From: Spinellus fusiger
Lineage: Eukaryota; Mucoromycota; Mucoromycetes; Mucorales; Phycomycetaceae
Assembly: GCA_025094145.1 (NCBI GenBank)
Contig: JALLLS010000035.1
Location: forward strand, 248,001 to 312,000
Length of the DNA: 64,000 nt
Reading direction: 5' to 3'
This document shows, one piece after another, positions 20,001 to 51,549 of this stretch. The notes under the pieces were generated by a model. It did not search any database. It worked only from the letters and a program-made list of their open reading frames with translations, and was not told where the DNA came from. Within the stretch, counting starts at the first letter, position 1, and each line of letters opens with the position of its first letter. The translations under genes and the position numbers were made by a program.

Positions 20001-20466
20001 TACGTTTTCAAGATAAATACAAATAGTAGACCTGTAGCTTTATTAATGAGCCAAAATTGGCATCGAGGCAATTTATATATCTACTCATTCCTTTATAATT
20101 GATTGATTCTACTATTTTTAAACAATTACTAGTGAAAGCTAAATAGTATAGGTTTATCTCTCTGTCTTATTTTGGCTCTATAAGATCTTTTAACACCTAA
20201 TCTTTGTTTTATTATTCACAATATATACTTTTAGTAAAAATATTATTAAAAGTATTCTCCTTCTATTCTGTCATCAGCTCTTCAACTGTTTATTCAAACA
20301 TATGTATGCTGCCTACCCCTATTCCCAATATGGAATTCTATGAAGTAATGGTTCTTGGAGTCATCCATACTAGATATTATAATATCTTTTTGCATGACAA
20401 AATCGAATAAGATACACTTCATTATCACTTTTTAGGTAGTTTACCTGTATCATGGGTTTCCGTCAG
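17081..20466. other. Large gene-poor spacer
   Basis: About 3.4 kb without a supported gene. It contains a degenerate gtgtctgtgttca tandem repeat at 17755-17805, a perfect short hairpin at 18423-18456 and scattered homopolymers. The last few hundred bases flank the 3' end of the Fanzor gene and are where a guide RNA would be sought. Confidence 0.55.
18423..18456. repeat. Perfect 15-bp stem hairpin
   Basis: The arm tataataattactat is followed by a 4-nt loop (tgtg) and its exact reverse complement. It could be a small palindrome of a decayed TIR element or a cruciform-prone site. It is not near a gene end. Confidence 0.7.
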
Positions 20467-22778
20467 TTAGTCAACCGAGGCTCCAGCGATAACTGGGGAG
20501 GAGAAGGATGGAGATGAGCCAGAAGGCTTGGACCTTTTATTGGTTCTAGGTGTATCTTTGTAGTCATGCTTTCTTTTGTTATATCTACAAAAGCGCTCTG
20601 GGCGGGTACCATTTTCCCTTTGAGACATTAGAATATGTCTAAAGTTCAATGTAGCAGCTAGATCACGATTCCAAAGCCTCAATGTCTTGTCTTTCATAAA
20701 ATTTTGGTTTGAACACCTATTTGAAGAGAGAGAAGGATGAGTCTTATTTTGATATAGAGTTAAGAAGAAATGACCTGAGAAGACTATGACATTTGACTTT
20801 GGGCATTTTTGTTCGTTGATAGGGCCTGGGGTTCTTGACATGTTTAAATGCTTCCAAAGGTGAGTACTTGCACTCAGGACACAGACTCGATGTTTTGAAT
20901 TCATTGATAAGATAGAGTTTGAATCCTTCTTTCTTCAACATCCTCCGCATGCCTTTTCCCTTTATTGGTTCATAGAACCTCATATTTATGCTTGACCAGT
21001 CGCCCAAGATCAACACCGGATCTTCTCCAAACTTGGCTCTCAAGTTTCGGGCTAGTCGTTTATCAGACTGCAATCTATTGATATGACTCGATAGCTTCAT
21101 CTTTCGAAATGGTAGTAGCGATTGTTTCATAATAAGAGAATTGGCACTTGAGGGGCCTTTTTCTTTTATACCACTGTCTTTTGTTTGCCCATTATCTTCC
21201 TTCATTGTTTCATTGCCGTAATACAATACCAAGTCCTCCGATACACTTGCTTTTGTTTGTATATAGTTAATGAATTCCTGGAGTTTTACTGTTGAGGCAG
21301 GAACTTGACTAAGTTTGTCTTCCAGTCTTTGGATGGATGGAGGCTTAAGGTTCTGTCGAAGCTTCTTGAAATGGGTTGACTTTGTTTCTTTGGCTCGTTG
21401 ATTACGTGTATACCTGTAGATGGATTTATTATCGGGTGTGCTGTTTTCTTGCATACAGAATAATAGGTCTCGACGACCTGGATCGATGATTACGCATTTG
21501 TCTTTTGTTTCCGCTAATGAAGCTTGAGATAACTCTTCAATAGACCCAATGTGATCCTCATCAATAAGTGCTTTGTGACTAACACCCGAGAAACGTCTCG
21601 ACATAAAGTTTTCCTTGATCACCGACACTGCCACACCATCGGTTTCTATTGTACCTTGGAATCTCATTGACCTATCTATACCTTGACTTTTGAACACCTT
21701 TGATTTTAGATTGACGACTTACCCCAAAGATCAAACTTTTCGCCCGTGTAGCTTTTGTTTTTCAAGATATGATGGTTGAGTATCTTAGTATCTATCGTAA
21801 TGTGAGAGGGAATGAAGCTTTTACGAAGTGGGAAGCAACTAAAAGATTTGTTTCCATTCTTTTCACATAGTTGGGCCAGCTTAGCAAATGCGTACATGTG
21901 CTTAGTTGGATTGGCTTTAACATCATAATAGATGGAGTTTTTAGCAAATCTATAACTGGGTGGATAGCAGGCTAGCAGTTCTTGTATTTGGCTAATGGCC
22001 TTTTGGTTCAAGAAATCTACGGGTGCATTGGGAACAGTCTTTGTCAAAATGTCTAGTTTGATTTGCGTACACACATCCAACACATTTAATCTAATAATAT
22101 TTACAATAGCCTCCTCAGAATAGTTTTTGGTTTTCATGGCATGGGTCAATGTGGCAATTCTTTCTTTTTGTCGCAGGATGATGTTGAAGAGCATTCTAAG
22201 ACGATTCCCAAATTGAGACACACTATTATTGATGTAGGATGTGTGTATCTTGGTGCTTTCATAGATAGATATCTGTTGAGCATTGGTTATTTTGATTGGA
22301 GTGTAGGACGCATATTGACAGTGGTCATTCTTCAGTGGGTTGATCTTCTCTCTTATTTGACGCACCTTGGGTGTGAGACGTGTTTTACCGGAAGCACTAC
22401 CCTCTCTGATTTGCCTATCAATGAGTGACAAAAATACCTCACGGAAGAAATCCTTAGTTATGCAATCATTCAAAGATCCATCTTCATTTTCGAGTAGATG
22501 GATCAATATATACTTGGAGAACACATATGTGTGAGAAACAATGGTATTGATGTTATGGACCAGATATTGTAAAACAGTTGAATATTCAGAACTCCAAGCA
22601 GTATCACGTAAAGATGTCTTGATTGTCATTATTCTGGCATGATTTGAACCCAAAGAACTTGCTATAGGCTCTTCATCAGTCTATTATAAAAATCAAATAC
22701 ATGTAAGAATCCTAGGTTGAATCTATAAGCATGTTGTATCTTCTTTACTTCATTAACATCTTGTTGGCTGCATAACAT
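20467..22778 (-). CDS. Fanzor (eukaryotic TnpB-like RNA-guided nuclease), probably intact
   Basis: Exons 22778-22749, 22680-21723, 21675-20775 and 20716-20467 join in phase, giving 712 aa; an internal ATG at 22629 gives 685 aa if the tiny first exon is wrong. The C-terminal half carries the TnpB/Fanzor RuvC fold: RuvC-I IIDPGRRDLLF (Asp394), the LGDWSSINMRFYEPIKGKG block, RuvC-II LINEFKTS (Glu588), a four-Cys zinc finger (C595, C598, C625, C631) and RuvC-III LWNRDLAATLNF (Asp648). All three acidic residues are present. The Lys/Arg-rich C-terminus (YNKRKHDYKDTPRTNKRSK) looks like a nuclear signal. By family knowledge such proteins cut DNA guided by an RNA made from the element's end. Introns of 68, 47 and 58 nt resemble host introns. 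No transposase or clear TIRs flank it. Confidence 0.88.
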
Positions 22779-23734
22779 CTTTAGTTCAGAAATAATAGAT
22801 AGAAATACAATAAGAAAGAGGAAATAAATAGTTATTTTATTAGCAACACTGAATAGTATCAGCTACTATTTATCATCCATTGATGTTATGGTGTTGTCAA
22901 TAGCTCCTTAGGTCCAAAGGTATTGGCTTAGTTAACGTACAATTAACTCTGCTCTTATTTATTCAACTTGTTTGTTATTCTTTTATACTTTAATGATTAT
23001 TACAGATAGAAGAACTTCAAGGAAATCACTACCAAAAGACATACATTCTAATGCAGGCTGTTGTACTTTTATATTATCTCTAAAAGATCTATCAACTGTA
23101 TTAAATACGCTACGACTTAGATGCTTTATTCAATACCATTGATTCTGTAGCTGTTTTATTTATTTATTTATAAACTGTTAAATGTTAACCTCTCGTTTCT
23201 TTAATAAATGGGGTCTGAGGTAACAGCATCCTGTACACCACTCAATATATCTCTTCTCAATGTGTCTTGGTTGTGCCATATAAAATTCAGACAACCTTGT
23301 TTAATGTTAGCATGCATGTCTACTCTATACTGATAAAGAGGGCTTTCCAAATAAATGCAAGTGATTTAGTTTTCTGTACATCCATCTGAAGCAGTAGTAT
23401 TTTAGTGTGCTTATCTTGACATTTTGGTCATTGACTGAGCATGTTTTTATAGTCCAACCTAAATGTCCTGTAGGAAGAAAGAAGTACTTGGCTCATAGGA
23501 TTATATGAATGATTCATCTCACTCATTCTTTACAGTAAGCTGCCATTTCTTGATCATATCATAATGTCTCTACTTTCTGTTTGGTATCTATTATTATTTG
23601 GACAATTGTAATGACTTTTGCGCAAATAGCCATACTTACAACAGCTTGTATATCTATTTTGACAATGGTTCACTCAAATAATACTATTGGGTATATAATT
23701 TGGATCAACATACTTGTTCAAGAAAGTGTTAATA
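22779..23734. other. Spacer upstream of Fanzor
   Basis: No gene is supported. It would contain the Fanzor promoter. No TIR matching the downstream flank was found. Confidence 0.5.
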
Positions 23735-24480
23735 CAGCCACACTCAATTGAGTTGAATAATTTTGAATATAAACATCAGGACGAAATATATAAGACATGT
23801 TCAACATCAAATAAAACACTTTACATATGATTTAGAAGCTTCACACTTAAGCATATCAAGTCTCAACATCTTTTATTATCGAAAAATAGAATAATAGTAC
23901 AGTTAATATTTTGTATGGCCTTCTTTGGCATCAATGACATCCTGGCATCTGTCTGTCATACTCTGAACCTATCGTTGTGCAAGTTCAATACCACCTTTCT
24001 ATATTGATAATAGATACCCTTCTTTCTTCAATACATATTTCCAAGGCGTATCAGACGTGTTCAATTGAGTTCAAGTCAGGGATTTGTGTAGGCTAGTAAT
24101 CAAAGAACCCTAATTTGATGTGTTTCTTTTCACCATCTAGCATAGGCCTCAGTATGACAGCTAGCACTCTTTTATTGTAACAGAAACTCGCTGTTGTTCT
24201 TTATGGTGCAATTCAATGAACCAAAGATGGAACTCACTAACTAAAACAATGATGTATTCGTCTTGGTTTACAGTGCCATCAACAACGACTAATGAGCCAA
24301 ATCTATTAGCCTAATAGCAACTCTAAAACATCACACCATTACCACCAAACTACATCGTTGGATCAATAGGATTATAACTATAAAGTGTTCTAAATATTTT
24401 AATGACACAGGCATCTCTATTGCTCTTTTTCATAATGTATGTTGACTCATCAGACTAAAGGATATTATTTTCAAACCTAT
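23735..24480 (-). mobile_element. Tc1-like element, family B, 5'-deleted relic
   Basis: The left end follows TA (23733-23734) with cagccacactcaattgag, matching the TIRs at 44444 and 50208. The next 700 bp align to the 3' halves of those copies, including the transposase C-terminus region (atcaatgacatcctggcatctgtc) on the minus strand. Homology fades after about 24480, and the N-terminal half and right TIR are gone. Confidence 0.7.
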
Positions 24481-29006: not shown

Positions 29007-30408
29007 TTACAATATAGCCTTTGCAGTAATTTTCTGTTTGAAGCCATTAAGTTTTATGCCAGTAACAATAAGAACTCACCTCACTACAATAGGGGCACTG
29101 ACCAAATAACACATTGAAGCTTCGTGTAGAATTTGGATTGGAGCGTAACCACTAAAAAAATATTAAAGTAAATCAAACAAGACTAATACTGTACAGAAAG
29201 AGAAAACCTACTTCATATAGGCAAGTAGGATGGAATCCTCGATTGCATAAATCATTAACACAAATAGTATCGGGAGTTTCTTGCACTGTATGATCTAGTT
29301 TATAGGCATAACAGATCCCGCACTCAACATCCTCTCCTTGGCCCTGTTCCTTTTGCACCTGATCTATTAATACATCTGATAAGATACATTTCAGGTTTTT
29401 CCATGGAGTATCTTCATTGCACCACGATGATGTTGCCTTTTGCCATTGAGACCAAAGATGGGTCGTGCGTTTCTCTGCACCAAAGAACCGTACACGCGGT
29501 AAATAGCGAGGGGTGTCTGGTTGGATTTCAATATGGACAGAGCAGTGATGAGTAAGTGCAATGCGGCGCCATGTATCAACACCACGAGGATGGTCTGGAT
29601 CAAGTATTTGGCCATAAGTATCTATTTCATCCATGCAGTTAAAATAGTCCTGGTATTGATGGATGAGAGAGTGTATATGGTGTATATGATCAGTCAATGA
29701 AGTAGTGGTTAAGGCAGAAGGTGGCTGCGGTAGGTCTACTTTAATAAGGGGAGCACTAAGAGGATAGTCTGCTGGAATAGAAGCCTCTATCTCATAGGTA
29801 CGCTCAGATGTGTCTCTTATCATAGCAGCTATTATTACAAAGTACTTTATCTTATCTACCTTTTTTTTTCTCTTTTCACTTTTTACCTGTATTCAAAAGT
29901 GATGTGTTCCATAGTATCCCCCATGTTCTTTACAGTACCAAATCCTAGTTTATCGATCTCATTGAAGAGAGTGGTGTATCTCTCAGCTGATATATGTGCT
30001 GGTGAAGGATATGTAGAGCATGTCTCCTACCCTTACAGTTAAGTCATTGTCTCCAGCACCCTTCTTACCAATATCTCTTTAAGGTCTGTCAACAAGACAC
30101 TGATATCTTCACAACGCCCTATTCTCTTTTGAAGCAGCTCTTCTTTACCCAATAATAGCTTCTGAAGAGCAGGCTCCCCATACACTGCTAGCGGAAGTTT
30201 ATGCGTAGGATCTGACAAATGAACCTCAATACTATAGTCTATAGACTTTATTGTTTTAATGAATAAGCACTGTGCGTATATATGTTCCTTCTATCATCAC
30301 ACTTTTCTCTATTACATGAACAGATAAAAATCCTCTATACGTCTGACCATCACTGTCGGCAGGTGCAATCAGTGGAAAGGCCATGAGCTTGATGAGTGTT
30401 CCTGACAT
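29007..30408 (-). CDS. FANCL: FANCL, E3 ubiquitin ligase of the Fanconi anaemia pathway
   Basis: Monoubiquitinates FANCD2-FANCI with its E2 (UBE2T in animals) during DNA interstrand-crosslink repair (family knowledge). Six exons in phase: 30408-30316, 30245-30069, 30026-29887, 29815-29212, 29151-29080 and 29033-29007, giving 370 aa, close to the usual 375. The N-terminal part fits the ELF/UBC-RWD region (E-A-S-I-P-A-D-Y-P-L motif, with the PLIKVDLP segment). The C-terminal RING/PHD begins ECGICYAYKL (C302, C305) and continues CVNDLCNRGFHPTCLYEWLR to FNVLFGQCPYCSE. The last exon adds only KITAKAIL. The third exon joins the fourth at an AAG acceptor. It shares a 109-bp divergent promoter region with the SANT-domain gene. 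Confidence 0.92.
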
Positions 30409-30517: not shown

Positions 30518-31594
30518 ATGTCTGCCAAACCACGTAGCATGACAGCCGGAGCACGCAATGTGCTTCGGTCTAATGACTCTGCTAGTTTATGGAACTGTAC
30601 CTTGTCGCCAGGTAACACTCGGTGCGAATGACATTACAGAACTCCTTGTCAATAGGGTGGACAGAAGAAGAATCGGAGCTGCTGAGGAATGCATTGATGA
30701 AATTTGGTATTGGTAATTGGGCCAAGATTATTGAAAGCGGCTGTTTGCCTGGAAAAACCAATGCTCAAATGAATCTTCAGCTTCAGCGGTTGTTGGGACA
30801 GCAGAGTACAGCAGGTAGTTTTTCTGTGTGTGTGTGTATGAGGAAAACAACAATAAGAAACAGTGTTAATATAAACAGAGTTCGCTGGTCTTCATATTGA
30901 CCCGAAAATGGTGGGAGAAAAAAACTCAAAGATTCAGGGACCCCATATTAAGCGCAAGAACAATTGCATTGTGAATACAGGCGGTAAATATCTTCTACAA
31001 GATATAATGGCTTAATAGTTTAGGCAAATTGACCAGAGAAGAGCTGAAAGAGAGATTGTTAAAGAATAAAGAGATGTAAGTGTGTTTATTGATTGCAAGA
31101 AAATAGACTTATCAAATATTTCTAGGTACGATCTACCAGCATCAGAGTGGTCCGAAATTGAATTACCCAGAATTGAAGATGTAAGCTACATGTGGAAACA
31201 AAAAGCTAATGTTATGGAAAGCCCCTGGTTCTTCTAGAGGCAAAAAAGGCAGAGATGCAACGATTGAATTTAGAACTGGAAAAGGTTCAAGCAAAGATAA
31301 AGAAAATGAAAGAAGCCCATCCTGATCGCATGGAAAAACTAAAGGTAAAGGAAGAGAAAGAGGTATATATCAAGAGAGAAAACTAATTGCGTGCAGTCTG
31401 AAGTGGCTCGTTCTCCCTCACCCGCCACACCTTCTGCTGATGAAGATGATGAAGTAATGCCAAATGTCATAAACACAGATGAGGACCTTGCTATTGCTAT
31501 TGCTCTTCAACAAGAAGAGGACGAACCCTATTCTGATGAAGACGACCATCCTATTAAAAAGCGAAAGACTACAAGAAAAAGCAAAAGATCTTAA
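30518..31594 (+). CDS. SANT/Myb-domain protein with UIM-like C-terminal motif
   Basis: Seven exons in phase: 30518-30611, 30656-30814, 30879-30983, 31024-31075, 31126-31180, 31240-31344 and 31397-31594, giving 255 aa. The first intron is 44 nt; splicing it yields LSPGWTEEESELLRNALMKFG. The SANT/Myb repeat at about residues 30-80 has the three Trp-type positions (GWTEEE, IGNWAKII, then a hydrophobic third). A Lys/Glu coiled-coil-like helix lies at about 155-185. The acidic C-terminus has EDLAIAIALQQEE, similar to a ubiquitin-interacting motif, and ends in a basic stretch (KKRKTTRKSKRS), a likely nuclear signal. A chromatin or ubiquitin-related role is inferred only. It is convergent with the YTP1-like gene, 52 bp apart. 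Confidence 0.78.
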
Positions 31595-34658: not shown

Positions 34659-37364
34659 CATTACGAATGTATGATAGCGTAGGGCACACAAAATCCCATC
34701 CAAAAGCTTGGAAAAGTTACTGGAATGCTGATCTACAACAGTTAGCTGACCGTCGTCAAGAACTTTATCATTATAGACGACGGGTAGGTAATGATCTTGA
34801 ACGCATTGAAGCCCACTGCTTGTATGAAGAAGCGTGTGTAGCGTTGAAATAGGCTACAAGGAAGGTACAACGACAAACCTGGCATGTATCTTGTGATCAA
34901 GTCCGTAAGAGCTTAACAGAGATGACAAGTGCTGTGAAAGGAATGAGGCTGCGGAGACGTTTGCCAATTTCCCTGCCATCTCCAGAGGACCCTCGGCATG
35001 CTGCCAATCGCATGATTGACCACCTAGAGAGAGTGTTTGGTAGATCTACGGAAAGACAGGAGCTTCAAGAGTGTATTCTCCAAGACAACCCAGTCCCATG
35101 GGACGTAGACTTTATTCACTCTGCTATTCGAAGGATGCTAAATTGAAAAGCACCAGGCATTGATCATATTAGAGCAGAAATGCTCAAACCCCTAGCTCGA
35201 GTGCTAGTGCCTCTGTTACATCAGATCTTCATATTGTGTTGAAGATGGTCGTGGACGCCTGTGGCCTGGAGAACAGCACAGGTGGTACCTATTTACAAAA
35301 ACAATGGAGAGCAGGATGACCCTAGTAACTATTGGCCTATTAGCTTGACATTGGTGTTTCGTAAGCTCTTAGAAAGATGTATAGCTGGGGAGCTCTTTTT
35401 GACCATGCCTGCATTGGACATGGCTCAAGGTGGATTTTACACTCGTCGTGGAACTCTAGACCAGGCCCTCTGTCTCCACGAACTTATGGGGTTGTACGCT
35501 GCCCAAGGATCAGGAGGGCAAGATCCAAAACCTCCAGTCGTCGTCTTCCTAGACATTAAAGCTGCATATGATAGTGTGGAGCGCTCTGTCCTATGGGAGT
35601 CGCTGATGCCCTTCGTGTCTCAGCCGTTGCTCTTGCTACTAAAGAGCTTGTTTGATGACATTGTGGTGAATGTGGTTCTGAAAAATGTAGCATCCGGGAC
35701 ATTTCACCTAAACGAGGAGTCTTACAGGGTAGTATTCTTTCTCCATTCCTTTATTCTATCTTCATTGATACTCTTCCACGTTTCTTGAGGTTTGCTTCGG
35801 TATTCCCAATACTGGTTGATATGTACCCACCTACCATGGGACGGTCTATTCATCTCTGTGCTCGAAATCCTTTTTCTTTTGCTTCCCCACAGGCAACTGT
35901 TCACACATTGCTTGACGAGTTACAGAATTCCCTTCACAATCCTTTTCCTACTTCTACAGTTTCGGATGACTCTTCTGAGTCGTCAGATTCCTCTTACAGT
36001 CCGTCTCATGTCACTGTTACCTGGGCTCCTGTGAATTGTTTGTTGTATGCTGATGATGTGGCTCTTATGGGCTGCCCAGAAGATATACATCGAATGCTGG
36101 CACTTGCCGAAATTCACTCGACCCTCCTTGGTTACAAATGGACTCCCTCCAAATGTGTACTCAATGCCCCGGTCAATGTGCCGTCTTATCTCTATGGCAA
36201 CGAGCTTTTAACCTGTGATACTTTCAAGTACATTGGCATCCCCTTTTCACGTCAAAGTATTAACCAAGACGCACTTTTCTCACACTCACAAGTCAAGGCA
36301 ATTGCAGTAATGCATAAGCTGAGAGGAATGGGTGTAAACATGTATGGCTTTGGGATTACAGCAGTCATAAGAGCTTATACTGTTTTTGTTCGGCCTATTA
36401 TTGAGTATGGGTTAGCTATTTGTAATGTCAATAGACTAGGCATCCACCCGCTACAAATATGTCAGTCTGCTTGTCTGAGACTTTGTCTTGCTAGATCTGC
36501 TACTGCTAGGTTTGGAAGGATTCAGGTTGCTCAATTAGCCGCCCTCCCTAACATATACTCTCGTTTCCTTTATCTCCAAGCCAAATTTGTTGAACACGCA
36601 GCTACCCTTCCTGAAGACACCTTCCTCTGGTGCCTTGTCCCGCAGCTTGAAGCACCCCAGAGTAAAGCCAGGTGGATTAAGCTACGTGGTAATGTACTCT
36701 GGCAAAATGCTCAAAGAATAGGACGGGCTCACAACCTTCCTAAATATCCATTAAAAGTAGCTTATCTTGAACGTCTTCAAAGTAAAATTACTAGTCTAGT
36801 GCGTGATAAGAATTCGTTAGTGGGGGGTAGATTGTTCATTGAGGCTGCTGATGGGTGTGTTGATCAGGAAAACCAACGCTGTCATAGAGTGCAAAGGACT
36901 CCTTCAGCAACAGACACTGTCTCCTCACTTCTCCTCCGATCTCTCCTCTACCACCCATTCTTAACCCGTTTAGCAAAGCCAGAAGCTGCCAGGGTAGTTG
37001 CTGTATTTGTGTCCTCAGGATTGCCCTAGTTGCTCTAAGTATCCCTCGTTGGATTTCGAATTACCATAAGATGACGGTTATCTTTTTGGTGCCCTGGTTT
37101 CCTTGCTGACTTTATGGCCTTTTTGGATGTCTATTCATAATTCTCATTTTACCATCATTTCTCATTTTTCATTATTTTTCCCTCATTTGAGGTTTTGTAT
37201 TTCTCTGTCCTTCTATTTCTAATTCATTTGCATTTTTTTTCACTTTTGTATTTGAAGTGTTTATATGTTTATTCTTATTTTTCTCAAAAGTTCTCATAGG
37301 GTGGCTAAAATGCCCAATGCGCGAATAGCAACCTACGCCCAAAAATAAAAAATACTTTGAACTG
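34659..37364 (+). mobile_element. Non-LTR retrotransposon (LINE), 5'-truncated, mutated
   Basis: A reverse transcriptase can be read in order: a fingers region (VPIYKNNGEQDDPSNYWPIS), then DIKAAYDSVERSVLW, a frameshift at about 35730, and the active-site CLLYADDVALMG in the 35785-37029 frame (414 aa), followed by the thumb and a C-terminal part without an evident RNase H. There are in-frame stops at about 34850, 35145 and 35240 and no 5' endonuclease, so the copy is 5'-truncated and dead. The 3' UTR (37030-37364) ends in aatactttgaact. The same tail occurs at 42913-43370 and 52000-52165. Confidence 0.88.
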
Positions 37365-37366
37365 TA

Positions 37367-38580
37367 CAGCCACACAGAATTAGAAAGTATACGACCCCAT
37401 AATTTATACATTTTTAAACATGATTCTTTTTCTTTTTACCACAGAATCGCATTCCATTAATCAATGTCAAATGTAAAACGCAGAATCCTCAACTAAAAAC
37501 TCAATAGGTTATGATAAGCTTGAAGAAAAAGAGTAATGGGGTGTTTATTGGCTTAAAAAAGAAAATTACTCCATGGGTAGCATTTCAAAGGTCGTTGGCA
37601 TTAGCAAGTCCACTGTCCAGAATATTATTAGTAGAATCATGACTAATGGTACACCTCTACCAAGACCTAGTTCTGGTTCACCAAAAAAACTTAACGAGAG
37701 AGACCACAGACAACTCGAGGCCATTCTAAGAGGCAACCCATTTGCCTTCTATAACTACATAAATCTGGAACTTAAGGCACATGAGATAATCATCTGTAGA
37801 GTAATATTCATCAAATAGATCCATCAGATTGGATTTGGTTCCTACTTTGAAGCACACAAGCCAAGGTTGTCTGAAGAAAACATGAAGAAAAGACTTCGTT
37901 GGGTGAAGGAACGGGTCAATTGGACTCCTGAGGACTGGAGACGCGTTGTATGGTCTGATGAGTCACAGTTTGAAGTAGAGGGTTGCCAGGGAGAAACAAG
38001 AGTAATTCGAAAGATTAGAGAAAGATACAAGGCTGCTCATATCATACCTACAACCAAATGGGGGAAAGGCAGCATAATGATCTGGAGCTGTTTCTGATCT
38101 GGTGGATTTGGGCCTTTGGTTTTTATTGGTGGTAGTGTAAATCAGAACGTATATGTCAACATTTTGGCAAAAAAATTTCTGTCATGGTTCATTAAATTAA
38201 ATGATAAAGAGGATAAGGACATTATATTCCAAGAAGATGAGGCTAGCTGCCATACAGGTGGCTATACAACATGGTGGAAAAATGCACATGCAATTAGGTG
38301 TTTTAATTAATGGCTTGCCCAAAGTCCTGATCTCAACCCCGTTGAACATATCTGGAGATGTCTTGATAACCTAATCAATGAAAATAGGGCCGTTATTAAT
38401 AATATTGATGAGCTCAAGACAGCTTTAGAAGAACCTTGGAGAAACATTCACGTCGATCTTGCCGAACGTTTAGTTGGCTCAATGAAGGATCGCTGCAAGG
38501 CAGTTATTGATGCCAAAGGTAACCCAAAAAAATATTAAATAGAATTTTTTTTTATATACATTAATATAAAAAATATGTTA
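37367..38580 (+). mobile_element. Tc1-like element, family B variant, inactivated
   Basis: Begins cagccacacagaattag after TA (37365-37366). The transposase frame reads, in order, HTH (SKVVGISKSTVQNIISRI), RRVVWSDESQFEVEG, QEDEASCHTGG and AQSPDLNPVEHIW, with stops at about 37816, 38095 and 38309. The right TIR is not recognisable and homology ends near 38580. The first 675 bp (37367-38041 or so) are identical to the reverse complement of 44951-45625. Confidence 0.85.
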
Positions 38581-41444: not shown

Positions 41445-42911
41445 CAGTATTTCTCGAAATTATTCACGCACTTGACGAAAAAAAATCACGCACTTGAAAA
41501 AAAAATCACGCACTAACTAAAAAAAAATTCAAGCATAAATATAAGAAAAAATTCAAGCACAAAATGAATAAAAATTCGTGCAAAGTTAAAATTACGCTTG
41601 CTTTGCTTTTATTAAGAACAACAAAATATTTTTGAGATGTCAACCTTTTATTATGACGATGGCGAAGGGATATTGACGGACGAAAACGGAAATAAAGCCA
41701 TTGAATACAAGATGGAGGTTGACAATGAGCAATATCCTCTCACTTCAATAACTACTTTTACCTCTTACCTGGATTTCAAACCTCCAGAGAAGTCACTGAA
41801 AATGACTAAAACCAAAGAAAAACCTTCCAGCTCGAAAGAAACCAATTCTGATATAAAAAAAAAAGATAGGACATGCCGGAAATACAAAAAGGAAGACATG
41901 GAAAATTTTTATTTCTTGGTGTTTGAGAAGAACATATCCATTCGTGGCGCTGCTAGAGAATTAAAAATACCTCCGGGTACTGCTCAAACATGGCATACTA
42001 AAGGAGTAGAAAGTCTAGAAAAAGGCGAAGATCTATGCTTAAGAAAACCAGGAAGCGGTAGACCTGTTGGGAGACCATTGACGATAAACTCTGAACAAAA
42101 AGAGTATCGTATAGATCTCATAGATCAAAAGCCAAGCATTGTTTTAGATGAGATGATGGAGGATCTTACTAATCGTTTTACAGATCTGGAAATATCAAGA
42201 TCCTCTCTCCACAAGTTTATTACTACTAAATGCAATATATCACTGAAAAGAGCTCACTTCCAGCCCGAAGAGCGCAATAGTGATACGAAGATAGAAGCTA
42301 GATTCCAATGGGTTACTGAGATTTTGAAGACTGATATTGATTATTTGAGCAATTGCGTCTTTATCGATGAGTCTAGTTTCAACATCAACATGAAGCGAAG
42401 TATGGCATGGGCCACGGTAGGAGAGACACCAGTAGTGCAAGTTCCCAAGACAAGAGCAAAATCGCATACCATCATAGGAGCTATATCCCATTTAGGCGTG
42501 ATAAATATACAACTGAAGACCCCAAAGGTCATAGCTCTTTCAAAAAAGAGAAAAGGGCCTGGTGGAGCTACCAAAAAACCAGAGAAAGGAAAAGGAGGAA
42601 CCGTAACTGGACATTATTTCAACTTTGTGGCTGAAACAATAAGTATTATGAATCAATACGAAGAGTTCAAGGGACATTATCTAATAATGGACAATTGTCC
42701 TATTCATAATCATGGTGATATCAGAAAGTATATTGAATTGTTTAAACAGAAAGCCGATTTAATAAACATCAATGCACGAATTTTTATTCATTTTGTGCTT
42801 GAATTTTTTCTTATATTTATGCTTGAATTTTTTTTTAGTTAGTGCGTGATTTTTTTTTTCAAGTGCGTGATTTTTTTTCGTCAAGTGCGTGAATAATTTC
42901 GAGAAATACTG
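41445..42911 (+). mobile_element. IS630-like long-TIR element E2, 3'-deleted
   Basis: TA-flanked, with ends cagtatttctcgaaattatt in inverted orientation. The TIRs are about 125 bp and nearly identical, built of repeated atcacgcactt and attcaagca units with A-rich spacers. It is inserted into the second LINE copy. The interior lacks the 3' end of its transposase gene. Confidence 0.9.
41637..42842 (+). pseudogene. E2 transposase, truncated at the third catalytic residue
   Basis: A 401-aa open frame. The N-terminus has EVDNEQYPLTSITTF and LDFKPPEKS, then an HTH (GAARELKIPPGTAQTW), GSGRPVGRP, the first Asp in CVFIDESSFN and the second in LIMDNCPIH. The frame then runs from IRKYIE straight into the TIR, so the NPIE block carrying the last catalytic acid is deleted. 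The product could bind TIRs but should not catalyse transposition. Confidence 0.85.
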
Positions 42912-47390: not shown

Positions 47391-49123
47391 CAGTATTTTT
47401 ACTTAGTTTTCGGACCTTTTCAAAAAAAATTCAGACGTTCTCTTTTCTTTTTTGGACGATTTCCATTTTAATTTCAGACGTTTACAAAAGGAAATTCAGA
47501 CTATTTTAATTTAATCTCATTAGAAAGACATCTATCCCAATAGGTTTCAGCATGTCTTACCCATCCTTTACAATCTTCTAAAGTAATCTGGTTGCAAGCT
47601 TCTGTAATTCGTGGAGTAAGTGTGTCTGATTTATCTAGAGGATTTTTTCTGATAAGCTTTTTGATTTTTGACCAGCATTCTTCGATGGGGTTCAAAAAAG
47701 GTAAGGTGGCATAAAAAGAGGTCTGTAACCTCTATTGTTAATGGCATCAATAACGTAGCGAGAATGATGAATTCTACAGTTATCTAAAACTATAAATACA
47801 CCCTTTTTGTTATGCTTATCCAAAACATCCATTACAGATTCCATAAATTTTACAATGTGGTAAGCTGTAGTGCCTTTTGGAAGTTGTTTCGGCTTTGATA
47901 TATCTTGGGTAGCGGCTTTTCTTTTCTTGCTTGTGTGTTGCTGGGGAAATTCCTTTTCAATTTTTTCTGCGTCTGTTTTTTTCAAAGGCTCAACTTTTGA
48001 AAAGTTTATAACACCAAATGAAGCAATACAGCCAACAATGCTTATATTAACGCCCTTTTGGGTATGAACTTTCACAATTGCTGGATCACCTTTCTTTGAC
48101 CACACACGACCTCTAATCATTTGAGTGTGGAATCCGGCTTTATCAACAAATACACAATTATTTTGATAATCAACACCAGCTGCTTTCCATTGAGCAATGA
48201 TATCAAAATGAAGTTTGATAGTCCTAGGTGCATCTCGTTCAGCTGTATATTTCGTTGCTTGCTTTAACGATAAAGCACATTTTTCAACGATATGCTTATA
48301 AAGCCCACTGACAGAGACTTCCAGTCCAGGAAACGCCTCATACAACTTTAATCTTGCTTCTTCAAGGACGATCGACGGATTTTTATCGAAGAGTTCGACT
48401 AGAAATGCCGAGTGTTGAGAGAATAGTTTCTTTGTTTTGTTGTTCGTTTTTCTTGGATTGTTTCCAGGCAGAACAGTGCCGTTACTAACATTGAATTCAT
48501 TTATTAATTCATATTCAGTGCTTCGAGGAATACTGCACAGCATAGCGGCTTTTGGGACTGACATGCCCTCTTCTTGCTTTACACGGATAAACCGTTCTAT
48601 CTGATCTTGGGTATATTTCTTATATCTGTTTGACTGATATAATGATACAGCTCCCATGTCTTCAACAATGTTATCCATAGATTCTGCCATCTGTGTTGTT
48701 TGATTTTGCAACATCACATCGAAATCTACGATCATCTCAATATTGCCGTACTCAGTTGCTGTAGTCTCTAATTCCATCTCTTCATCAGTATCTTCTGTCA
48801 AGTATGCATCTTCTAATGGTTGGTATTTAATATAGTCCATCTTTTTATTTAGTTCAGTTTTTTTTTAAAAAAAAAATTATAAATGTGAAGTTCAAGGAGA
48901 TAATGAAATAGGTTGATGAAATTTACTGCTTCTCTGAAATAAGAGTTTGTCTAAATTAAGTAAGGAAAAAGTCTGAAGATAAAAGAAACTTGTCCAATAA
49001 AAAATTGGAATTGTCCGAATTTCCTTTTGTAAACGTCTGAAATTAAAATGGAAATCGTCCAAAAAAGAAAAGAGAACGTCTGAATTTTTTTTGAAAAGGT
49101 CCGAAAACTAAGTAAAAATACTG
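47391..49123 (-). mobile_element. IS630-like long-TIR element E3, nearly intact
   Basis: TA-flanked 1.73-kb element. Ends cagtatttttacttagtttt are inverted and identical for about 110 bp, with repeated ttcagacgt, tccga and ggacga units. The near identity of the TIRs suggests recent insertion. It encodes one transposase on the minus strand. Confidence 0.92.
47501..48840 (-). pseudogene. E3 transposase with a single 1-nt frameshift
   Basis: 48840-47692 encodes 382 aa with an N-terminal acidic region, an HTH (MSVPKAAMLCSIPRSTEYELI), the first catalytic Asp in CVFVDKAGFH and the second in FIVLDNCRIHH, up to MPPYLF and a stop. The next frame (47695-47501) continues with NPIEECW and the remaining 60 aa. 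A run of six T at the join suggests loss of one base, real or a sequencing error. Otherwise the enzyme would be complete. Confidence 0.85.
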
Positions 49124-50207: not shown

Positions 50208-51549
50208 TAGTCACACCCAATTGAATTTAATACTTTTGAAAATAAATTTCAGGATGAAATATTTAGGACATTTTCAACATCAAATGAAACACTTCACATT
50301 TGATCTAGAAGCTTCAAACTTAAGCTCAACAAAGCTCAACATCTTTATTTATAGAAAATAAAATAATAATAGGAATTAGTATTTCGTATGGTCTCCTTTG
50401 GCATTAATGATAGCCTGTCATCTATCTGTCATACTCAGAACTCATCGTTGTGCAAGTTCAACACCAACCCTCTCCCACTCTTCTGCAAGTAGAGCCTTCA
50501 AACCTTCAACATTGGTAATAGATACTGTTATTTCCTCAAATCGTCTTTCCAAGGCATATCAGATATGTTCAATTGGGTTCAAGTCAGGACTTTGTGCGGG
50601 TCAGTACTCAAAATGCCTAATTTGATGCGTCTCTTTCCACCATCTGGCATAGGCCCCAGTATGACAACTAGCATCATCTTCTTGTAAAAGAAACTCCCTA
50701 TCCTCTTTCTGATGCAATTCCATGAACCAAGGATGGAACTCACCAGTCAAAATCTTGATATATTCGTCTTGGTTTACAGTGCCATCAACAAAGACTCATG
50801 GGCCAAATTCACCCGTACAAAAACAGCTCCAGAGCATGACCCCACTACCACCAAATCTCGTTGCTGAAACAATAGAATTAGGATCATAACGTTCTTCAAC
50901 TATTCTGATGGTACGGGCACCTCCATTGTTCTCTTTCACGGTGTATCTGGACTCATCAGACCATATGACGCCTTTCCACTGGTCGTTTGTCCAATTAACA
51001 TGTTCCTTAGCCCAACAAAGACGTTTCTCTTTGTGTTTTACAGTTAAATCTGGCTTGTGAACTTTAGAAAAAGATCCGAACCTTAACTGATTGAAGTAGC
51101 TGATAATGGTGTATCTACATACATCAACCTGAATCTTCAACATTTCCAATTTTAACTGATTATATGAAGCAAATGGGTCCTCTCTAATGACCTTTTCCAG
51201 GTGTCTGGGGTCCCTTTCACTGGCTTTCTTAGGTTTTCCATGACTCTTTAAACGCAATGGTGACCCACGTTCTTTGATGTTTCTGACACAATTTTGAGCT
51301 GTGGGCTTTTTCATCTCAACTACACTCACAATGACAGTCAATTTTAATCCAGCCTTAAACTGGTAATAAATGCCCCATAGATTTTTATCTTCTGCTTTAT
51401 TACATTCTCCATGAGTGTGAGTTTCTAAAAATGTATCTGACATGTGTTGGTTTAATAACATTTGGAAAGAAGAAGAGTTTTATGCAGAAAAAAAAAAGTT
51501 TTTTTTTATTAAAATTTAGGCAACTATTAAATTCAATTGAGTATGATTG
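50208..51549 (-). mobile_element. Tc1-like element, family B, full length
   Basis: The left TIR, tagtcacacccaattgaatt, and the reversed right TIR, caatcatactcaattgaatt, sit inside TA at 50206-50207 and 51550-51551. At 1.34 kb it is the only family B copy with both ends. Confidence 0.87.
50395..51461 (-). pseudogene. Family B transposase, broken
   Basis: 51461-50796 (221 aa) is open and includes NCVRNIKERGSP, the DPFASYNQLKLEML segment, VIWSDESRYTVKENNGGAR (first catalytic Asp) and MLWSCFCTGEFGP. After a stop, further pieces read LLQEDDASCHTGAYARWW (second Asp) and AQSPDLNPIEHI (third), with more stops, down to the end at AKGDHTKY. It is inactive. Confidence 0.82.

Follow-up and report, generated by a model that had tools for sequence, protein, structure and literature searches.

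A broken, 5'-truncated Fanzor1 transposon copy in Spinellus fusiger and the selection signal on shared Fanzor changes in its multicopy family

The minus strand of a 64,000-nucleotide stretch of Spinellus fusiger DNA (the window; C127:248001-312000 of a 38.08-Mb assembly) carries a Fanzor1 coding region that ends with a stop codon at 20469-20467. The closest solved relative of its product is Parasitella parasitica Fanzor 1 (PpFz1; E 2.9e-83 and 5.4e-76), and the second solved match is the Spizellomyces punctatus Fanzor, SpuFz1. Open minus-strand stretches at 22680-21706, 21718-20744 and 20934-20467 match successive parts of PpFz1, and the last exon alone yields E 1.7e-4 in a homology search against solved Fanzor1 proteins. 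Pfam TNB and NCBIfam TnpB match the window Fanzor below cut-off only; a whole-Fanzor Pfam scan of an open copy, C2, finds no family at E 0.01, and PF26935.1 is precomputed on most database relatives of an open natural sister copy (L004, 628 aa). A protein search with this sister copy gives 136 matches among 7998 scored candidates; among the 120 listed, the best named matches are to Pilaira anomala (50%, 48%), Parasitella (45%) and Gilbertella, and lower down are numerous proteins from Rhizopus and Mucor, with some from Umbelopsis and Coemansia, in keeping with a mucoralean host. The homology to PpFz1 and SpuFz1 bears out the original assignment to the Fanzor family, outside which the profile search does not place the gene, as well as the statement that its characterized relatives are RNA-guided DNA nucleases.

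The codons of the RuvC acids start at 21484 (Asp), 20902 (Glu) and 20664 (Asp), those of the zinc-finger cysteines at 20881, 20872, 20791 and 20715, and the C-terminal tail is basic. The catalytic residues of SpuFz1 are D383, E541 and D606 (PMC11423790), and Asp-Glu-Asp is therefore the set expected in Fanzor1. The Fanzor1 motif D-X(125,275)-[TS][TS]XX-C4 zinc finger-X(5,50)-RD, as defined in PMC3627910, is present, with TSS after Glu 20902 and RD ending with Asp 20664, and is satisfied across intron 3 and downstream of a frameshift, not within a single open frame of the window copy. Of the earlier reading, in which one spliced frame carried three RuvC acids, four cysteines and a basic tail, every residue is thus at the locus, but they do not share one frame, and the break precedes the acids.

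Table 1. Positions of the features in the window, with the evidence on which each is placed
Feature	Position	Strand	Basis
5'-truncated Fanzor-carrying transposon, cut off at 24464 inside the transposase	20370..24464	-	homology limits among copies
TA adjoining the 3' end, probable target dinucleotide	20368..20369	.	TA beside CTAG in nearly all listed copies
3' non-coding end, expected omega-RNA scaffold site; possible 6-bp terminal hairpin at 20372-20387	20370..20466	-	folding, alignment
Last exon (fourth Cys, RuvC-III Asp 20664, basic tail, stop)	20467..20716	-	homology, residues
Intron 3 (GTCATT...AATAG, 58 nt)	20717..20774	-	splice signals, copy alignment
Main Fanzor1 exon, frameshifted (N-terminal part, RuvC, first three zinc-ribbon Cys)	20775..22680	-	homology, alignment
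Single-base loss compared with sister copies, read earlier as intron 2	21718..21722	-	alignment of copies
Possible intron 1 (GTAAAG...AATAG, 68 nt)	22681..22748	-	frame and splice signals
Possible first exon (MLCSQQDVNE)	22749..22778	-	frame kept in two copy types differing by a 12-nt indel
Broken Tc1/mariner-type transposase, C-terminal part	23900..24454	-	tblastn; 23900-24150 end judged by eye
Fragment related to the Tc1/mariner-like transposase	37951-38223		
Two ORFs with Pfam DDE_3	41637-42842, 47692-48840		Pfam
Tc1/mariner-like transposase gene (HTH_Tnp_Tc3_2)	50796-51461 (region 50697-51461)		Pfam

Elsewhere, the window holds a host FANCL-like gene at 29173-29892 (Pfam FANCL_d3 and FANCL_C), a Myb-domain ORF at 30616-30900 and, at 35785-37029, an ORF with a YADD motif in which Pfam finds nothing convincing and which we take to resemble the reverse transcriptase of a non-LTR element.

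Three introns had been predicted to keep the frame, and they fare differently. Removing 22748-22681 joins MLCSQQDVNE in frame to the Fanzor body; PpFz1 and the window locus both have sequence upstream of the ITIK/MTIK motif, and intron 1 is plausible. Intron 3 is supported as genuine: it is indel-rich among the copies that keep it and carries 31.0 shared changes per 100 sites vs 7.0-15.3 in the exon parts, a figure that refers to an intron hard to align, while the 5' flank of the gene (12.1) and the 3' end (11.1) do not rise above the exons. The Fanzor1 gene of the element probably had one or two introns.

The supposed intron 2 is a one-base deletion at 21718-21722, present only in the window and in copy C113, i.e., in 2/30 aligned rows (the window plus 29 copies from the same genome). 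Among the other 28 rows, C165 and C141 have other one-base indels near this site, and four deletion-class rows (C24, C134, C1 and C112) have a three-base gap. PpFz1 is ungapped here, its chain running continuously from residue 815 to 816. The deletion creates GTAAGT, which explains the apparent intron; an intron 2 is rejected because the deletion occurs in only two rows, PpFz1 has no gap, and the candidate introns would remove conserved residues. Translated from the ATG at 22629, the window copy meets a stop after 307 codons, upstream of all three RuvC acids, so it is expected to make no nuclease. The description of the gene as apparently intact does not survive comparison of copies within one genome, which reveals the frameshift ahead of the RuvC domain; a one-base deletion that creates GTAAGT can pass for an intron.

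The gene sits in a transposon with a sharp 3' end. Homology begins at window positions 20366-20369 in 25/29 copies, at 20359 in three and at 20623 in one; in nearly all listed copies the terminal CTAG stands beside TA, and the flank beyond the TA varies among copies. At the other side, homology among several copies, e.g., C1, extends some 0.65 kb beyond the equivalent of 24464 and reaches a conserved 5' end, and C154 is also 5'-truncated, ending at the equivalent of 24436. In the element, the transposase precedes Fanzor1 on the same strand. The transposase remains at 24454-24152 share 52% identity (tblastn, E 2.4e-26) with window positions 50963-50697, which lie in an ORF that carries the Pfam domain HTH_Tnp_Tc3_2; in two short pieces of these remains scanned directly, Pfam identifies no transposase family. 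The Fanzor gene was predicted to have no neighboring transposase, yet this fragment belongs to the same element.

The 5' end reads CAGTAATTATAT followed by A or T (40 sites, L076-L115, fetched from 45 exact matches), unlike the 3' end. Copies with both ends have no long matching terminal inverted repeat, and the 5' end has no matching terminal repeat; the only match is a subterminal one of 14 of 17, with 5/500 shuffles as good. Among five copies with both ends, a TA target duplication fits C90, C118 and C124b, the two ends of the last two being presumed to belong together, while in C1 and C116 one side has TA but the other TG, and longer repeats, imperfect in C1 and perfect (8-11 bp) in C116, are present. 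With the target duplication ambiguous and no long terminal inverted repeat found, the transposase remains and the TA are what assign the element to Tc1/mariner. The earlier finding of no terminal inverted repeat is not confirmed as it stands: the window copy has a sharp end at 20370 beside TA and is missing its 5' end.

None of 16 transposase fragments is open throughout, and the stops are common to copies: among fragments with letters at the position, codon 35 is a stop in 12/16 and codon 44 in 13/16, a set in which the fragment labelled C2 belongs to a neighboring element in opposite orientation. Four of the 16 (C120a, C171, C127b and C127c) are more diverged, at 72.6-77.1% DNA identity, another sign of exchange between copies. 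Elsewhere in the genome there are related transposases whose open frames reach 368 aa (150 of 1627 candidates scored), and the element could therefore have been moved in trans.

In the assembly, at least 124 protein matches to Fanzor (123 of 353 candidates scored) and at least 66 DNA matches to the element (40 of 534 candidates scored) are found. The 3'-end pattern has 187 exact matches vs one for the reversed control, a count in which some palindromic sites appear on both strands; a 24-base palindrome, TACTAGAYATTATAATRTCTAGTA, carries the pattern on both strands at G000:C2:336347-336370, C4:40676-40699, C35:20141-20164 and other places. At least one more distant Fanzor group (about 40-57% identity) is also present (G000:C110:204785-205678, C114:459704-460597, C24:495517-496416 and others).

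Not one of the 14 full-length Fanzor copies, the window included, is cleanly intact; these are the rows longer than 2500 nt among the 30, the others being dropped for deletions. Twelve of the 14 have open lengths of 11 to 467 codons. C110a extends over 630 codons, with an ATA start and a frame shift ahead of the last zinc Cys, and C2, once intron 3 is taken out, stays open over 664 codons but has no GT donor; C123 is itself frameshifted. Copy C2, the most open (L040, L064), ends at the equivalent of 23759, facing an oppositely oriented element, with a zinc-ribbon stub of class C (defined below) at C2:341398-341595. Copies C120a (L039) and C120b (L043) have different flanks, common early Fanzor stops and intron damage, and different transposase halves, a pattern suggesting that a dead copy moved or recombined.

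Three recurrent internal deletions remove window equivalents 21689 to 20718 (class A), 21497 to 20745 (class B) and 22618 to 20967 (class C). In a tree of exon sequences (26 rows), the members of class A, like those of class B, are spread over more than one group; copies may have exchanged sequence, or the deletions may have recurred. Among the derivatives seen, class C is the most frequent: 112/150 scored matches (243 candidates) reach its junction, a count that includes at least one long copy not of this class, and with the fused query 99/150 matches begin at residue 1 and 13/150 at residue 2. The junction fuses the start, MTIK, in frame to GKGMRRML..., leaving a zinc-ribbon stub at roughly a hundred places (e.g., L066:1618-1872 and L067:406-822), and is the same in 10/10 fetched copies, which were taken from the better matches and are not a random sample. 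A functional zinc-ribbon mini-Fanzor was considered and rejected, as changes in the ten copies look unconstrained (private ratio 1.32, shared 4.30); a zinc Cys is lost in 2/10 of them, and the WNRD stretch is missing in 1/10.

The 3' end is present in all copy classes. As a single strand, its last 99 nt are no more stably folded than shuffles (z -0.66; 45/200 at least as good), and the one covarying pair of the terminal hairpin is not significant (42/500 shuffles reach its score) in an alignment (A1) of 22 copies, chosen without C2 and others whose ends are odd or missing; Rfam returns one weak, irrelevant match and nothing relevant. In Fanzor1 the target duplication may form part of the guide scaffold (PMC10711439); here, this would place the TA in the scaffold and the variable flank in the guide. 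PpFz1 works with an RNA of 75 nt, and its reported motif is 5'-ATN (PMC11423790). Read on the gene strand, the four positions that adjoin the 5' motif TAATTACTG on its outer side are W-A-T-A (W 32/32, A 31/32, T 32/32, A 30/32) in the 32 rows continuing ATTA, some of which have common flanks and are not independent, and not all of which need carry Fanzor. This is compatible with the PpFz1 motif and may simply be an element end or a target preference. The 3' end of the window copy could at most supply guide RNA to a Fanzor made elsewhere.

Selection was assessed on majority columns (616 codons) of the 14 Fanzor copies, with changes split into shared (in at least two copies) and private. Shared changes comprise 100 nonsynonymous, 79 synonymous and 2 stops vs 120.2, 54.2 and 6.6 expected, and a synonymous count of 79 is reached in 0/2000 shuffles; private changes (198, 85 and 9 vs 195.9, 83.8 and 12.3 expected) lie close to expectation. 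Shared and private changes differ (odds ratio 0.54, Fisher P 0.003), the former pointing to purifying selection and the latter looking neutral. In five copies in which a dead transposase is continuous with Fanzor, shared changes are 32, 35 and 0 vs 45.0, 19.2 and 2.8 expected (0/2000 shuffles), and private ones 95, 51 and 6 vs 99.6, 45.8 and 6.6. The result is much the same when the window (shared ratio 0.52) or C120a (0.55) is omitted, and seven copies with any broken continuous transposase give shared counts of 61, 56 and 2 vs 79.2, 34.7 and 5.1 expected (0/2000); both sets exclude C2, whose neighboring transposase piece is in opposite orientation.

The transposase fragment itself (99 codons, 12 copies) has 32 nonsynonymous, 14 synonymous and 1 stop among its shared changes, which do not differ from the neutral expectation (ratio 0.85, P 0.26). 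Its shared-vs-private odds of 0.52 (P 0.13) are close to the 0.54 of Fanzor, and a difference in selection between the two genes is therefore suggested only. In class A and B copies, for which only exon N was compared, private ratios are 0.67 and 0.69 (P 0.016 and 0.0095); these low values would be hard to explain simply if the copies had been dead from the start, but the private changes may include older ones, as few copies are compared.

The family with its copy number, frameshift, truncation, common transposase breaks, deletion derivatives and selection signal on shared changes, all observed directly, is in all probability to be read as follows: the window holds one dead copy, truncated at its 5' end, of a many-copy DNA transposon that was moved in trans and whose Fanzor frame was kept for some time despite a dead transposase. 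Such an element would consist of a Tc1/mariner-type transposase, then Fanzor1, then a 3' non-coding scaffold segment, with flanking host DNA becoming the guide. Related transposases with long open frames are numerous in the genome, and one of these would have moved the elements; the Fanzor of a source copy, with the guide of each locus, would cut the element-free (excised or allelic) site, and repair of the cut would restore or copy the element. The Fanzor frame may have been kept after transposase loss because Fanzor cutting led to this restoration or copying.

The same signal might have arisen if Fanzor were mere cargo, with purifying selection predating the death of the transposase and its trace spread among copies by recombination; this has real, if minority, weight. 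Fanzor copies are joined to different transposase halves, so exchange between copies is likely and some shared changes may be older than the transposase breaks; derivatives without the RuvC domain multiplied too, and the shared-vs-private odds are similar in the transposase. Yet the five copies with a continuous dead transposase keep the signal (shared ratio 0.39), and their Fanzor frame has no shared stop. Still more tentative, and on balance improbable, is the specific proposal that Fanzor was kept after transposase loss by transposon-level selection, as a trans-acting retention or homing enzyme that takes guides also from Fanzor-less derivatives, with the W-A-T-A beside the 5' motif as a possible trace of its action at the sites where copies persist.

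It is very hard to sustain that the window gene is intact, a young intron covering the frameshift and a splice to a downstream AG restoring the frame. The deletion does make a consensus donor, carried by C113 as well, and frame-restoring AGs lie 41, 47, 68 and 77 nt and further from the new GT, but these splices would remove VVNL...KSQG (Q317 and G318, in C2 numbering, are invariant in a 10-row alignment, A2), most sister copies and PpFz1 read through the site, and the private changes look neutral, as in dead copies. A domesticated host gene or lone single-gene element, the two alternatives offered by the original prediction, would fit a window copy that is immobile by itself for want of a 5' end and an intact transposase, but the broken frame, the 14 full-length copies of which none is cleanly intact, the neutral private changes and the presence of a dead transposase in a multicopy transposon leave this scarcely credible.

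The preferred reading, of a dead copy from a family moved in trans, gives the locus its interest. With well over a hundred related copies, among them near-complete Fanzor genes and Fanzor-deleted derivatives of three kinds, and with its transposase dead, the family lets one ask whether Fanzor aids element persistence independently of the element's own transposase, a role left open in a Nature 2023 discussion. In open-licence full texts, the only match for Fanzor and purifying selection concerns piggyBac, and among the listed matches for Fanzor or transposable elements in Mucorales no title addresses this question. A single pattern scan of viral_contigs gave 52 matches, none confirmed.

Relative to PpFz1 (PDB 9cf0-9cf3), the window Fanzor belongs to the same Fanzor1 group and has the same RuvC and zinc-ribbon residues, with 44% identity in the N part (137/309) and 47% in the C part (150/321); of the two, only the window copy is frameshifted. 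PpFz1 carries an RuvC insertion of about 100 residues, the FRI, that binds cyclophilin (PMC11423790). The window family is without most of it: 33 residues separate GNET from LLPF vs 111 in PpFz1, and the YPQP loop is absent.

At the level of the element, the 2013 paper on Fanzor1 in Tc/mariner elements is reportedly by Bao and Jurka. Such elements have been in print since that year (PMC3627910): PGv-1, PUl-1 and PUl-4 described there resemble the present one in combining a mariner-type transposase with Fanzor1 and in having TA at the ends, while Mucorales examples given there are MuDr-type (ROr-4, PBl-3, MCi-4) or unclassified (MCi-2), not mariner. 'Ghost' elements in Spizellomyces punctatus have been known since 2023 (Saito et al., PMC10432273). 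Like the present family, Spu-1 of that fungus has many full and partial copies and Fanzor-less derivatives that keep their ends; according to the same report no transposase was found inside the Spu-1 repeats, whereas this element holds a dead one, and in contrast to the Spu-1 ghosts the commonest derivative seen here retains an in-frame zinc-ribbon stub. The window gene is a broken further Fanzor1 of a known sort, and its interest lies in the family-level pattern.
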